Of a stretch of 64,000 bases of DNA, positions 17,688 through 55,575 are shown piece after piece. The notes under the pieces are model-generated. The model searched no databases, was not told the origin of the DNA, and saw only the letters and a list, made by a program, of their open reading frames with translations. The translations under genes were made by a program, and so were the position numbers. This DNA is from Bradyrhizobium sp. 186. GTDB taxonomy: Bacteria > Pseudomonadota > Alphaproteobacteria > Rhizobiales > Xanthobacteraceae. Numbering within the stretch: the first letter of the stretch is position 1; each line of letters begins with the position of its first letter. Location: positions 9,765,001 to 9,829,000 of the forward strand of contig NZ_CP082164.1 of NCBI RefSeq assembly GCF_023101685.1, read 5' to 3'.

Positions 17688-18041
17688 CGTCATGCCCGGG
17701 CTTGTCCCACGGCTGTCCGGTTCAGGCAAAACGGTTGCAACGAGACGCATCGACTCGTAATGAGCGCAAAATTCATTGATATGACTCACGATTTTTGCGC
17801 TCTCGTTTTAGCCGAGCGACCCGCAGCGGAGTATGCTGAGGTCCGCAATGAAGAAAATTTGCGGTGTTCTCGCGAACAACAAGTCTTCGCAGCTATGCCC
17901 CGACGCCATTAATTGACTCTAGCGACTCGCTTTTTGACGCCGAAGCCTGAACCGGACAGCCGTGGGCTTGTCCCGGGCATCCACGTTCTTTGCGCCGGCA
18001 AAGGAAGAACGTGGATGGCCGGGACAAGCCCGGCCATGACG
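17688..18041. repeat. RUP palindrome (CATCCACG family) interrupted by a 255-bp insertion
   Basis: CGTCATGCCCGGGCTTGTCC (plus one C) at 17688-17708 and the continuation GGGCTTGTCCCGGGCATCCA from 17964 to the end of the right half at 18041 form one normal RUP once 17709-17963 and one 11-bp duplicate are removed. The loop TTCTTTGCGCCGGCAAAGGA is present. Confidence 0.88.
17709..17963. mobile_element. Putative 255-bp MITE with 19-bp terminal inverted repeats
   Basis: The ends are perfect inverted repeats ACGGCTGTCCGGTTCAGGC (17709-17727) and its complement (17945-17963). The flanks carry an 11-bp direct repeat GGGCTTGTCCC (17698-17708 and 17964-17974), explained as a target duplication because the intact RUP sequence has it once. 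Inside, GAGCGCAAAA (17762-17771) and TTTTGCGCTC (17793-17802) form a second hairpin. No transposase is encoded; a 50-codon open frame (17760-17912) resembles nothing I know. I cannot name the parent transposon. Confidence 0.7.
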
Positions 18042-18065: not shown

Positions 18066-18357
18066 TCACTGGGTGATCGTGTCGTAGAGGTCCTTCCACT
18101 CGGGATTGTCTCTGAGTATCAGCCGCACCTTCCACTTACGCGGCCAGTGCTTGATGTTGTGCTCGCGCTGGATGGCGGTTTGGATTTCCTCGTAGCGCTC
18201 GAAATAGACAAGACGCTTCACGGCGTACTTCTTGGTAAAGCCTGCTACCAAGCCCCTCGCGATGCTCATATGTTCGCCGCACGAGATCATTCGTGACGCC
18301 GACATACAAAATGCCATTTGGCGCGCTCGCCAGGATGTACACCCATCCGCCTTGCAT
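18066..18357 (-). pseudogene. GIY-YIG nuclease gene, frameshifted (RUP-associated)
   Basis: From ATG at 18357 one frame gives MQGGWVYILASAPNGILYVG...TYEHREGL, the N-terminal half of a single-domain GIY-YIG protein. The other half (AGFTKKYAVKRLVYFERYEE... to NPEWKDLYDTITQ) lies in the next frame. The frames join near 18245-18252; the span is 292 bases, one more than 97 codons, so a single-base insertion is the simplest cause. Two intact relatives lie at 22286 and 55246. The gene lies between RUP sequences at 18010-18041 and 18375-18406. A sequencing error cannot be excluded. Confidence 0.82.
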
Positions 18358-18374: not shown

Positions 18375-18406
18375 CGTGGATGGCCGGGACAAGCCCGGCC
18401 ATGACG
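18375..18406. repeat. Solitary RUP half upstream of the broken GIY-YIG gene
   Basis: CGTGGATGGCCGGGACAAGC continuing to GGCCATGACG is one half of the CATCCACG-family palindrome, without its partner. It begins 18 bases upstream of the GIY-YIG start codon. Confidence 0.85.
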
Positions 18407-20111: not shown

Positions 20112-20274
20112 TGCGTTCCCTCCCCCCTTGCGGGGGAGGGCTAGGGAGGGGGGTGCCACACGGCGCGCTCTCTCCATTTGGACGTTCGCGGCGCGCATTC
20201 TTTCTCGACGAGGGATAGACCTTTTCCTGGGCTACCCCCCTCCCCTGCCCTCCCCCGCAAGGGGGGAGGGAGTC
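20112..20274. repeat. Palindrome of the CTCCCCCCTTGCGGGGGAGG family between def and fmt
   Basis: CTCCCCCCTTGCGGGGGAGG at the left is mirrored by CCTCCCCCGCAAGGGGGGAG at the right, with inner GGCTAGGGAGGGGGGT and ACCCCCCTCCCCTGCCC strands. A folded transcript here might separate def from fmt expression; that is inference. Confidence 0.85.
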
Positions 20275-22237: not shown

Positions 22238-22636
22238 TGTCGTCGCCCGGCTTGACCGGGCGACCCAGTATCCCAGAGACGCCAAATGGGAACGCGCAGC
22301 TACTACGTCTACATACTCGCTAGCAAGATCGGCGGCACCCTCTACATCGGCGTGACCAATGATCTCATCCGCCGGGTAGCGGAACACAAATCAAAGCTGA
22401 TTGAGAGCTTCACAGAGCAGTACGACGTCGTCAGGCTCGTCTACTTCGAGCAGTTCGATGATCCCGAGAACGCGATCAGGCGCGAGAAGCGACTCAAGAA
22501 ATGGAAGCCAGCGTGGAAGATCGCGCTGATCGAGAAAGAAAATCCGGACTGGAATGATCTTTATCCGGAGATAGCAGGTCCCCCATAACCCCTGCCTCTG
22601 GAATACTGGATCGCCCGGTCAAGCCGGGCGACGACA
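22238..22636. mobile_element. RUP-GIY-YIG unit: nuclease gene inside a RUP palindrome
   Basis: Left arm 22238-22280 starts TGTCGTCGCCCGGCTTGACC and ends CCCAGTATCCCAGAGAC. Right arm 22596-22636 starts CTCTGGAATACTGGATCGCC and ends GGGCGACGACA. They are near-perfect inverted copies over about 40 bases with the GIY-YIG gene between. In gene-less members of the family (26008, 37498) the two inner ends differ: one carries CCAGTATTCCAGAGAC, the other the CCAGTACGCCGCGG type. Confidence 0.8.
22286..22588 (+). CDS. Single-domain GIY-YIG nuclease (RUP-embedded)
   Basis: The 100-aa product is a minimal GIY-YIG domain: SYYVYILAS (GIY strand), TLYIGVTNDLIRR (YIG plus the conserved Arg), DVVRLVYFEQF and the helix ENAIRREKRLKKW with the metal-binding Glu. 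The catalytic set looks complete. ATG at 22286 lies six bases after the left RUP arm; the stop is seven bases before the right arm. Relatives of the UPF0213/YhbQ type are often multicopy in this order and are annotated only as nuclease family proteins. Two more copies lie in this window. That it acts on RUP DNA is my inference. Confidence 0.92.
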   Translation: MGTRSYYVYILASKIGGTLYIGVTNDLIRRVAEHKSKLIESFTEQYDVVRLVYFEQFDDPENAIRREKRLKKWKPAWKIALIEKENPDWNDLYPEIAGPP

Positions 22637-26007: not shown

Positions 26008-26110
26008 TGTCATGCCCCGCGAAAGCGGGGCATCCAGTATTCCAGAGACAGTTGTGATTTACCGAGAAGCCGCGGCGTACTGGGTCGCCCGGTCGAGCCG
26101 GGCGACGACA
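26008..26110. repeat. RUP palindrome (CCAGTATTCC family), gene-less copy
   Basis: TGTCATGCCCCGCGAAAGCG leads to CCAGTATTCCAGAGAC on the left; the right half reads GCGTACTGGGTCGCCCGGTC and ends GGGCGACGACA. The two inner ends are unlike, in contrast to the GIY-YIG unit at 22238. Confidence 0.85.
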
Positions 26111-30782: not shown

Positions 30783-30911
30783 CTCCCTCTCCCGCCTGCG
30801 GGAGAGGGTTGGGGTGAGGGTAGCTCCGCAGGCGAGGCTCCCCAAGAGGATAAAACCCTCACCCGCATCGCATCTTCGATGCGATACGACCTCCCCCGCA
30901 AGCGGGGGAGG
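30783..30911. repeat. Palindrome of the CTCCC...GGGAG family inside the operon
   Basis: CTCCCTCTCCCGCCTGCGGG and AGGGTTGGGGTGAGGG at the left face CCCTCACCC and CTCCCCCGCAAGCGGGGGAG at the right. It separates the binding-protein gene from the permease gene and could set different transcript levels for them. Confidence 0.8.
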
Positions 30912-30929
30912 TAAAGCAAGAAAGCACGC

Positions 30930-37497: not shown

Positions 37498-37595
37498 TGT
37501 CATCGCCCGGCCGGGCGATCCAGTACGCCGCGGCTCCTCCGCTCAATCGCAACCGTCTCTGGAATACTGGATCACCCGCTTTCGCGGGTGATGAC
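37498..37595. repeat. RUP palindrome (CCAGTATTCC family), gene-less copy
   Basis: The left half TGTCATCGCCCGGCCGGGCG leads to CCAGTACGCCGCGG; the right half TCTCTGGAATACTGG leads to ATCACCCGC and GGGTGATGACGG. As in the 26008 copy, the two inner ends are unlike. Confidence 0.83.
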
Positions 37596-37627
37596 GGCGG
37601 TCATGCGGCAAGCACGCGCCCGCCACC

Positions 37628-51947: not shown

Positions 51948-52078
51948 ACCTCTCCCCGCTTGCGGAGAGAGGTCGGATCGCTCTTGCGATCCGGGTGAGG
52001 GGGTACAGGTCCTTCGACGATCTCGTGCGTGGAGAGGCCCCTCACCCCAACCCTCTCCCCGTAAGAACGGGGAGAGGG
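51948..52078. repeat. Palindrome of the CTCTCCCCG...CGGGGAGAG family
   Basis: CACCTCTCCCCGCTTGCGGA and the following CGGATCGCTCTTGCGATCCG hairpin lead to GGGTGAGGGG; the other arm reads CCCCTCACCCCAACCCTCTC and ends CGGGGAGAGGG. It lies between the stops of the convergent LysE and GST genes and may help end both transcripts. Confidence 0.8.
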
Positions 52079-55181: not shown

Positions 55182-55575
55182 CGTCGTCCTGGCGAAAGCC
55201 AGGACCCATTACCCCGGTCAGCGTTGCTTTTTGCGAGCTGTAGCCATGAGCGCGTGCAACTACTACATCTACAGCCTCGCAAGTCGCCATCACGGGACAA
55301 TCTATATCGGTGTCACCAACGACATCTGTGCGCGGATTGAGCTGCACCGTTCGGTTAGAGGCTCCAAGTTCGTACACAGGTACGATATCTTCCGACTGGT
55401 TCATGTCGAAGTATTTGCGACACCGCAGGAAGCCATTGCGCGCGAGAAGCAGCTCAAGTTCTGGAAGCGTGACTGGAAGATTAAGCTGATCGAGGAAGAG
55501 AATCCCGACTGGAATGACCGGACGGGCCTTCTCTGACAGTTGGGGTAATGGGTCCTGGCTTGGGCCAGGACGACA
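55182..55575. mobile_element. RUP-GIY-YIG unit: nuclease gene inside a second RUP family
   Basis: Left arm CGTCGTCCTGGCGAAAGCCA (55182 on, ending GGACCCATTACCCC) and right arm GGGGTAATGGGTCCTGGC (55542 on, ending GGCCAGGACGACA) are inverted copies over about 33 bases, with the GIY-YIG gene between. The inner ends are identical (CCCATTACCCC), whereas gene-less members of the family at 14574 and 47792 have unlike inner ends. Confidence 0.8.
55246..55536 (+). CDS. Single-domain GIY-YIG nuclease (RUP-embedded)
   Basis: The 96-aa product starts MSACNYYIYSLASRHHGTIY and contains the YIG strand IYIGVTNDICARIELH, FRLVHVEVFATPQEAIAREK with the metal-binding Glu, and the C-terminal DWKIKLIEEENPDWND shared with the 22286 copy. 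The catalytic pattern looks complete. ATG at 55246 is used because the family N terminus begins there. It is as close to its RUP arms as the 22286 copy is, yet those arms belong to a different RUP family. A role in moving or cutting RUP DNA is inference. Confidence 0.92.
   Translation: MSACNYYIYSLASRHHGTIYIGVTNDICARIELHRSVRGSKFVHRYDIFRLVHVEVFATPQEAIAREKQLKFWKRDWKIKLIEEENPDWNDRTGLL

Follow-up and report, generated by a model that had tools for sequence, protein, structure and literature searches.

Small GIY-YIG nuclease genes inside CGTC-tagged REP pairs of Bradyrhizobium: a probable counterpart of the RAYT/REPIN pairing

REPs are among the most abundant bacterial repeats. The closest described pairing of such repeats with an enzyme is that of the RAYTs, characterized in the relevant sections of Bertels and Rainey (2011, PMC3116915) as single-copy, divergent genes that each lie beside their own repeat family; REPINs, gene-less inverted doublets, are dispersed in the genome, with apparent co-evolution of gene and repeat. 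CGTC-tagged REPs, as delineated in the corresponding passages of the survey by Di Nocera, De Gregorio and Rocco (2013, PMC3733652), consist of a CGTC, TGTC or CCTC tag, a stem of 8-9 with AT in its first two positions, a loop of 4-5 and a CCA tail, and occur mostly as head-head dimers; Bradyrhizobium, Neisseria (dRS3), Azospirillum lipoferum, Sinorhizobium meliloti and Novosphingobium aromaticivorans are named as carrying them. According to these passages, no transposase gene is associated with CGTC repeats, which seemingly lack a dedicated transposase, and the enzyme was surmised to have disappeared or to have been replaced; the main text of the survey contains no mention of GIY.

We analysed a window of 64,000 nucleotides from the genome of Bradyrhizobium sp. 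186 (NZ_CP082164.1), in which the gene of a small GIY-YIG nuclease sits between two inverted palindromes (Table 1). PF01541 is the sole Pfam match of its product (E 5.3e-17), and no NCBIfam model matches it. The arms (22238-22278 and 22596-22636) extend over 41 nt, are 95% complementary and lie 317 nt apart, in agreement with the first-pass annotation, which had described near-identical inverted arms of about 40 bases; the stop codon ends seven bases before the right arm, as it had stated, and the start codon lies five rather than six bases after position 22280. Each arm is a stem-loop in itself, with an outer TGTC tag and a CCA tail, and both have CCAGTATyCCAGAG as their inner end. The inverted-repeat score of these flanks is 36.5; among random 300-bp intervals of the window, 1.1% reach a score of at least 18 and 0 of 2000 a score of 36. 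Three of 54 window ORFs have flanking inverted repeats scoring at least 18, and two of these three are the two intact GIY-YIG genes.

Table 1. Coordinates of GIY-YIG units and gene-less dimers in the window.
Feature	Position	Strand	Details
GIY-YIG nuclease gene, 100 aa, subgroup A (subfamily A3)	22286..22588	+	ATG 22286, stop 22586-22588
Left CGTC-type REP	22238..22280	+	tag TGTC 22238-22241, stem GTCGCCCGG 22242-22250, loop CTTGA 22251-22255, stem 22256-22264, CCA 22265-22267, then inner tail GTATCCCAGAGAC
Right CGTC-type REP, head-head to left one	22596..22636	-	tag TGTC (GACA on +) 22633-22636, stem 22624-22632, loop 22619-22623, stem 22610-22618, CCA (TGG) 22607-22609, inner tail to 22596
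Second GIY-YIG gene, 96 aa, subfamily A2	55246..55536	+	own palindrome family
Left arm of second (A2) unit	55183..55215	+	GTCGTCCTGGCGAAAGCCAGGACCCATTACCCC
Right arm of second (A2) unit	55542..55574	-	
Third GIY-YIG copy, subfamily A8, broken	18072..18348	-	split over two overlapping frames
Gene-less head-head dimer, window REP family	26008..26110	.	unlike inner ends, two stem types
Gene-less head-head dimer, window REP family	37498..37596	.	

RUPs are MITEs of Streptococcus pneumoniae, and this name, initially given to the window palindromes, proved to be wrong. The palindromes fit instead the CGTC-tagged REPs as delineated in the 2013 survey: a TGTC tag marks the outer end, followed by a 9-bp stem, the 5-nt loop CTTGA and CCA, the deviations being GT/AC in place of AT in the left arm and one mismatch at the stem base in the right arm. 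They are also arranged head to head and multicopy, the tail pattern occurring 88 times in the genome, compared to 2 occurrences of the reversed pattern.

The genome has five PF01541 matches, one of them uvrC; the flanks of the four others were scored, and all four have inverted arms scoring at least 18. The four arm families are all different, namely that of the window unit, CGTCGTCCTGGCGAAAGCCAGGACCCATTACCCC at the 55-kb gene, GTCATGGCCGGGCTTGTCCCGGCCATCCACG at the broken 18-kb copy (REPs at 18015-18037 and 18380-18402), and a longer palindrome around the fourth gene, which lies outside the window. Several gene-less copies of the REP family around the broken copy occur in the window, and another genome (L074) carries an open-frame relative of this copy in the same surroundings. 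A further palindrome family, CCCTCTCCCC...GGGGAGAGGG, is present at 20118-20270, 30785-30912 and 52051-52078; no GIY-YIG gene was seen alongside these copies. As first annotated, the gene-less dimers at 26008 and 37498 have unlike inner ends, one CCAGTATTCCAGAGAC and the other CCAGTACGCCGCGG, in contrast to the like ends of the gene unit. Counting closely spaced gene-less pairs by eye (n=32, the first places listed in four genomes, a selected sample since the pattern had to match both ends), we found 25 with unlike ends, 7 with two CGCCGCGG-type ends and 0 with two CCAGAG ends. The window unit has like ends in a combination that these dimers do not show, and is therefore not simply a dimer with an insert.

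Across 49 aligned relatives of the window protein, Y9, Y20, R30, H34 and N86 never vary, and at least 90% have E67. Y9, Y20, R30 and E67, which we take to be catalytic, are all found in the window protein together with N86, in line with the first-pass annotation, in which its catalytic residues looked intact, and the PF01541 match combined with this set of Tyr, Tyr, Arg and Glu places the protein in the GIY-YIG superfamily. A3 genes are under strong purifying selection: the median dN/dS of 18 genes is 0.086 (121 of 153 pairs with defined dS), with many pairs near saturation given a median dS of 1.45, and the value is 0.085 in the 5 pairs with dS below 0.8. In a Foldseek comparison, an AlphaFold2 model of the window protein (mean pLDDT 87.6) comes closest to BH0048, a UPF0213 protein (E 2e-4), and to the branched-DNA nuclease Slx1 (best E 4.5e-3, TM about 0.5); these matches are modest, with TM values of about 0.5-0.6.

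Our survey of the genus covered 75 loci among the listed PF01541 matches of this genome and 50 other Bradyrhizobium genomes, 40 of them picked from listed matches in genomes with at most 3 contigs and added to 35 others. One locus is uvrC, and the remaining 74 small GIY-YIG proteins fall into four sequence groups, A (the window type), B, C and D. Inverted arms scoring at least 18 within 250 bp flank 38 of 42 group A genes, a count that comprises fewer independent cases because many loci are orthologs of one another in different genomes; the four exceptions are L029, L058, L052, which has an unusual, extended frame, and L071, with a frameshifted C-terminus. None of the 26 genes of groups B and C, which likewise encode single-domain GIY-YIG proteins, has such arms, and we therefore rejected the notion that they are a property of all small GIY-YIG genes. 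A strict CGTC motif on both arms is present in 24 of 42 group A loci, 0 of 26 in groups B and C, and 1 of 1000 random window intervals; two locus sets outside this genus set gave 31 of 77 and 12 of 28. In group D, four of six genes (L003, L060, L064 and L069) have inverted arms scoring at least 18, which read CGTCATCCTGAGG...CCTCGAAGGATGACG in L003, L060 and L064; the arms of this group (CGTCATCCTGAGG...) failed the test for CGTC REPs (strict motif 0/6), and group D perhaps represents a second pairing of GIY-YIG genes with repeats.

Every group A subfamily goes with a palindrome of its own; at least nine such pairs were read by eye. Exceptions to one gene per family are two A3 genes in each of two genomes (G020 and G037) and two A1 genes in a third (G031). 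At a locus shared by A2 and A9 (L041, L062), differences between the arms go together with differences between the proteins. Over 91 loci, with orthologous pairs excluded, protein and arm similarity correlate weakly, yet beyond permutation (rho 0.13; 3 of 999 permutations as high).

For two of the at least nine subfamilies, A2 and A3, we compared gene presence with repeat number in 98 genomes of the genus, using repeat patterns designed from the repeats of the window genome and a few relatives, and thresholds for gene presence (E) and identity that were chosen after the scores were known. All 14 genomes that possess an A2 gene have A2 repeats, in 5-47 copies; of the 84 genomes lacking the gene, 20 have A2 repeats and 64 have none. 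Eleven A2-gene-less genomes carry at least five A2 repeats, and six of these eleven have a 63-66% relative of the A2 gene. The median number of A3 repeats is 85 in the 38 genomes with an A3 gene, compared to 44.5 in the 60 without, which include two with gene fragments. In both subfamilies tested, repeat number thus follows the cognate gene (A2 p 8e-10, A3 p 2e-5) and not the other one (A2 gene and A3 repeat p 0.10, A3 gene and A2 repeat p 0.75; 98 genomes), although these p-values overstate the evidence since the genomes share ancestry. Reversed-pattern controls gave 0-3 matches per genome and strand for A3 and 0 for A2. A3 repeats are nevertheless abundant without their gene (median 42.5 in 58 genomes, at least 80 copies in 8 of the 58, and 181 in G305), indicating that the gene is not needed for keeping them.

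Together with the flanking arms and their specificity, such a cognate link is best explained by an enzyme that acts on REPs, for the gene-less dimers in trans, and we consider it probable that group A proteins are resident REP-associated nucleases which serve the CGTC REPs of their own family, a RAYT/REPIN-like pairing built on an unrelated enzyme. Alternatively, they could be housekeeping structure-specific enzymes that trim or resolve REP cruciforms, while the REPs themselves gather next to the gene by gene conversion or for its regulation. The persistence of A3 repeats in many genomes after the gene is gone accords with this, as do the same location of the gene in many genomes, the strong purifying selection and the predicted Slx1/UPF0213-like fold, and the flanking hairpins could act as terminators. 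A core repair enzyme, however, would need no cognate repeat, let alone a separate family for each subfamily in the genus or a repeat number that tracks its own gene alone in both subfamilies tested; nor would its presence be expected to be as patchy as at the space between rmuC and ampG, where 18 of 50 genomes have an A3 reading frame. We therefore regard the housekeeping role as unlikely.

Turnover is visible at this rmuC-ampG space. Besides the genomes with an A3 frame, among which L093 and L099 have a stop inside the aligned range, two (L110 and L113) contain a fragment or broken copy, and the gene was not found in 30 of the 50, the contig ending there in L107, L109 and L115 and ampG being missing from the L106 stretch. 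Eight of these 30 spaces harbor a gene-less dimer that belongs to a different CGTC family, shortened in L097, and three harbor one of the A3 family; L122 and L124 retain what by eye is left of an A3 unit after its deletion. In place of the single arms of the window genome, L078, L082 and L085 have a full dimer on both sides, L094 and L111 have one on the right side only, and in L123 the A3 unit is inverted. These changes of state are unpolarised. Sequence resembling the CCCTCTCCCC...GGGGAGAGGG palindromes was seen at the same spot in L077, L087 and L089. The site of the dimer at 37498 was read in 25 loci (L278-L302), 15 of which keep the same far-side gene; these 15 display an empty state (L288), dimers of other families, inverted dimers and exchange of whole stems, and none has a clean junction. 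In L280, the dimer at the equivalent spot has collapsed into one hybrid hairpin.

Copying into cut repeats would account for whole-arm exchange more readily than point mutation would. Under the reading that we prefer, the gene would sit inside a head-head CGTC REP pair and work with the gene-less dimers of its family elsewhere in the genome. In single-stranded or supercoiled DNA, a REP dimer would extrude hairpins; the small nuclease would recognise its cognate hairpin and tail and nick the hairpin, and repair would then copy another dimer into the cut site or overwrite an existing REP. Binding and cutting by the nuclease, and the copying of REPs, are steps that we infer. The gene itself would stay in place and serve the repeats in trans, much as RAYTs are thought to serve REPINs.

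One could also imagine that the entire unit of REP, gene and REP is self-mobile in the manner of a homing element, with REP dimers as the sites that it cuts and into which it is then copied. The gene does lie inside a pair whose ends are the presumed target, the inversion in L123 and the arm exchanges at rmuC-ampG point in the same direction, and in Azospirillum lipoferum 4B (L264, NC_016623.1) a GIY-YIG unit with full dimers on both sides is located between sufB and sufC, in a suf cluster that is otherwise compact. However, each subfamily is kept to one or a few loci within Bradyrhizobium, the like ends of the window unit are a combination absent from the listed gene-less dimers, and 69 joined-flank queries (69 dimers) returned neither a precise empty site nor the target duplication that a MITE of a DDE insertion sequence would show there. 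We hold self-mobility to be very unlikely. Within the genus, the gene is mostly resident, occupying the same place in many genomes rather than travelling with its repeats, and since the gene rarely changes place, no transposition of a whole unit was seen. The first-pass annotation had suggested that the proteins may cut or mobilise the palindromes and that relatives be searched for empty sites; an empty state occurs in L288, but no clean or precise site was found, and with a gene that is mostly resident the idea of cutting or mobilisation stays a conjecture.

Beyond the genus, a profile built from 12 group A proteins matched 111 of the 240 genomes from the class and 175 of the 299 from the phylum, the weaker matches including other GIY-YIG groups, as they do in the window genome itself. 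At least 578 candidate stretches across bacteria match the profile, and the best 80 were kept (L126-L205); L206-L263 are the best match per genome, and L166, L170, L190 and L219 were left out as their flanks are too short. Among 106 scorable loci of the named and class sets, the named ones coming from the best 80 of at least 578, 66 score at least 18, a value that 6.2% of mismatched arm pairs reach. With either this score or a CGTC motif in each of the two arms taken as a pass, 101 of the 147 sampled best relatives outside the genus set pass (named 58/77, alphaproteobacterial class 16/28, phylum 19/28, plasmid collection 8/14) and 46 pass neither test, compared to 6 of 216 neighbouring ORFs (loci L126 onward). 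Random intervals, neighbouring ORFs and mismatched arm pairs together rule out chance or repeat-rich surroundings. The proposal of a link would have been refuted by homologues lying mostly away from repeats or by flanks no better than those of random genes, and we observed neither. Named non-alphaproteobacterial records pass in 21 of 30 cases, including Lutibacter, Polaromonas, Desulfobacteraceae, Nitrospinota and Planctomycetes, though many are metagenome bins, such that single assignments may be wrong; in L184, the arms read TGTCATTCCCGCGAAAGCGGGAATCCA on both sides. In Sinorhizobium meliloti pSymB, the inverted arms score 18.0 with the strict CGTC motif on one arm, and on a Novosphingobium aromaticivorans plasmid inverted palindromes lie near the gene and lack the strict motif.

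The plasmid collection contains 35 matching records out of 72,556, and 14 of the 35 were analysed; at least three of the matching records are chromosome-sized (two Neisseria, one Aeromonas). Given these numbers and a single weak phage match, phage or plasmid cargo was rejected as an explanation. One record (L265, NZ_CP119142.1), a 2.17 Mb Neisseria gonorrhoeae sequence filed as a plasmid, looks chromosomal by its size. In Planktothrix (L270, NZ_LR882964.1), a GIY-YIG relative is situated between a type IIL restriction-modification gene and drmA (DISARM), with arms scoring 17.5, slightly below the threshold.

This distribution bears on a further explanation, in which the gene is a passenger that became enclosed by REPs a single time, in an ancestor, with co-inheritance of the pair ever since and an enzyme that has no bearing on the repeats. 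Orthologous residence within the genus is what one would expect of a passenger. However, the layout recurs in several phyla, where neither the loci nor the arm sequences are related, the arms at the A2/A9 locus differ along with the protein, and the cognate copy-number link speaks against such a scenario. The passenger explanation is already weakened by these observations, and we hold it to be very unlikely.

Returning to a cognate nuclease, Neisseria offers a comparison with RAYTs in the same organism. A record of N. gonorrhoeae contains 108 matches to a dRS3 pattern, and its GIY-YIG gene has dRS3 repeats on both sides; as dRS3 tails are CCG or TCTA besides CCA, this gene passes the score test only. 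The RAYT-like gene of the same record has, by eye, GTAG-type repeats on both sides, and no CGTC REP was seen in the stretch inspected at the two Y1 genes of the window genome, which are located elsewhere. On these grounds we rejected a RAYT as the partner of CGTC repeats, with the complication that the RAYT-like gene of N. gonorrhoeae also has a dRS3 dimer close by on one side. Reportedly, later studies of REPINs in Neisseria may ascribe dRS3-like repeats to a RAYT.

Taken more broadly, there is about an even chance that these genes form a cross-phylum class of genetic parasites or symbionts, in which a nuclease of 100 aa, rather than a transposase, spreads and rewrites CGTC palindromes, including the dRS3 of Neisseria, by hairpin cutting and repair copying. 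The family appears to be the partner that a widespread class of repeats in bacteria has long been missing. If so, it would answer the question of the CGTC enzyme as raised in the passages of the 2013 survey cited above. The spread of REPs would become amenable to tests in laboratory bacteria, and a common gene, so far annotated just as 'GIY-YIG nuclease family protein', would gain a function. The parts are known, and their pairing is apparently unreported: among the papers listed in our searches of the open-licence PMC literature, we found none linking GIY-YIG to REPs.

Related proteins set the pairing in relief. UPF0213 and other small GIY-YIG proteins (PDB 1zg2, 1ywl) and Slx1 have the same catalytic fold as that predicted for the window protein, and we know of no repeat partner for any of them; subgroups B and C of the genus are single-domain GIY-YIG proteins too, yet without flanking REPs. 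With RAYTs and REPINs, the window type shares the flanking of the gene by inverted REPs of a dispersed family and the cognate pairing of gene and repeat, usually with one gene per family. The first-pass annotation's idea of an unrelated counterpart of RAYTs is strongly supported as far as the association goes, which is specific to subfamilies, absent in groups B and C, present in other phyla and reflected in the repeat counts of two subfamilies. The enzymes themselves differ: the Y1/HUH tyrosine transposase domain PF01797 was not detected in the window protein, in which PF01541 alone matches. Whereas the CGTC REPs of the 2013 survey, in the passages devoted to them, come without an enzyme gene, here a nuclease gene lies inside head-head pairs; and whereas RAYTs, as described in the sections cited, are Y1/HUH tyrosine transposases that go with GTAG-tagged REPs, the window type comprises GIY-YIG nucleases that go with CGTC-tagged REPs.
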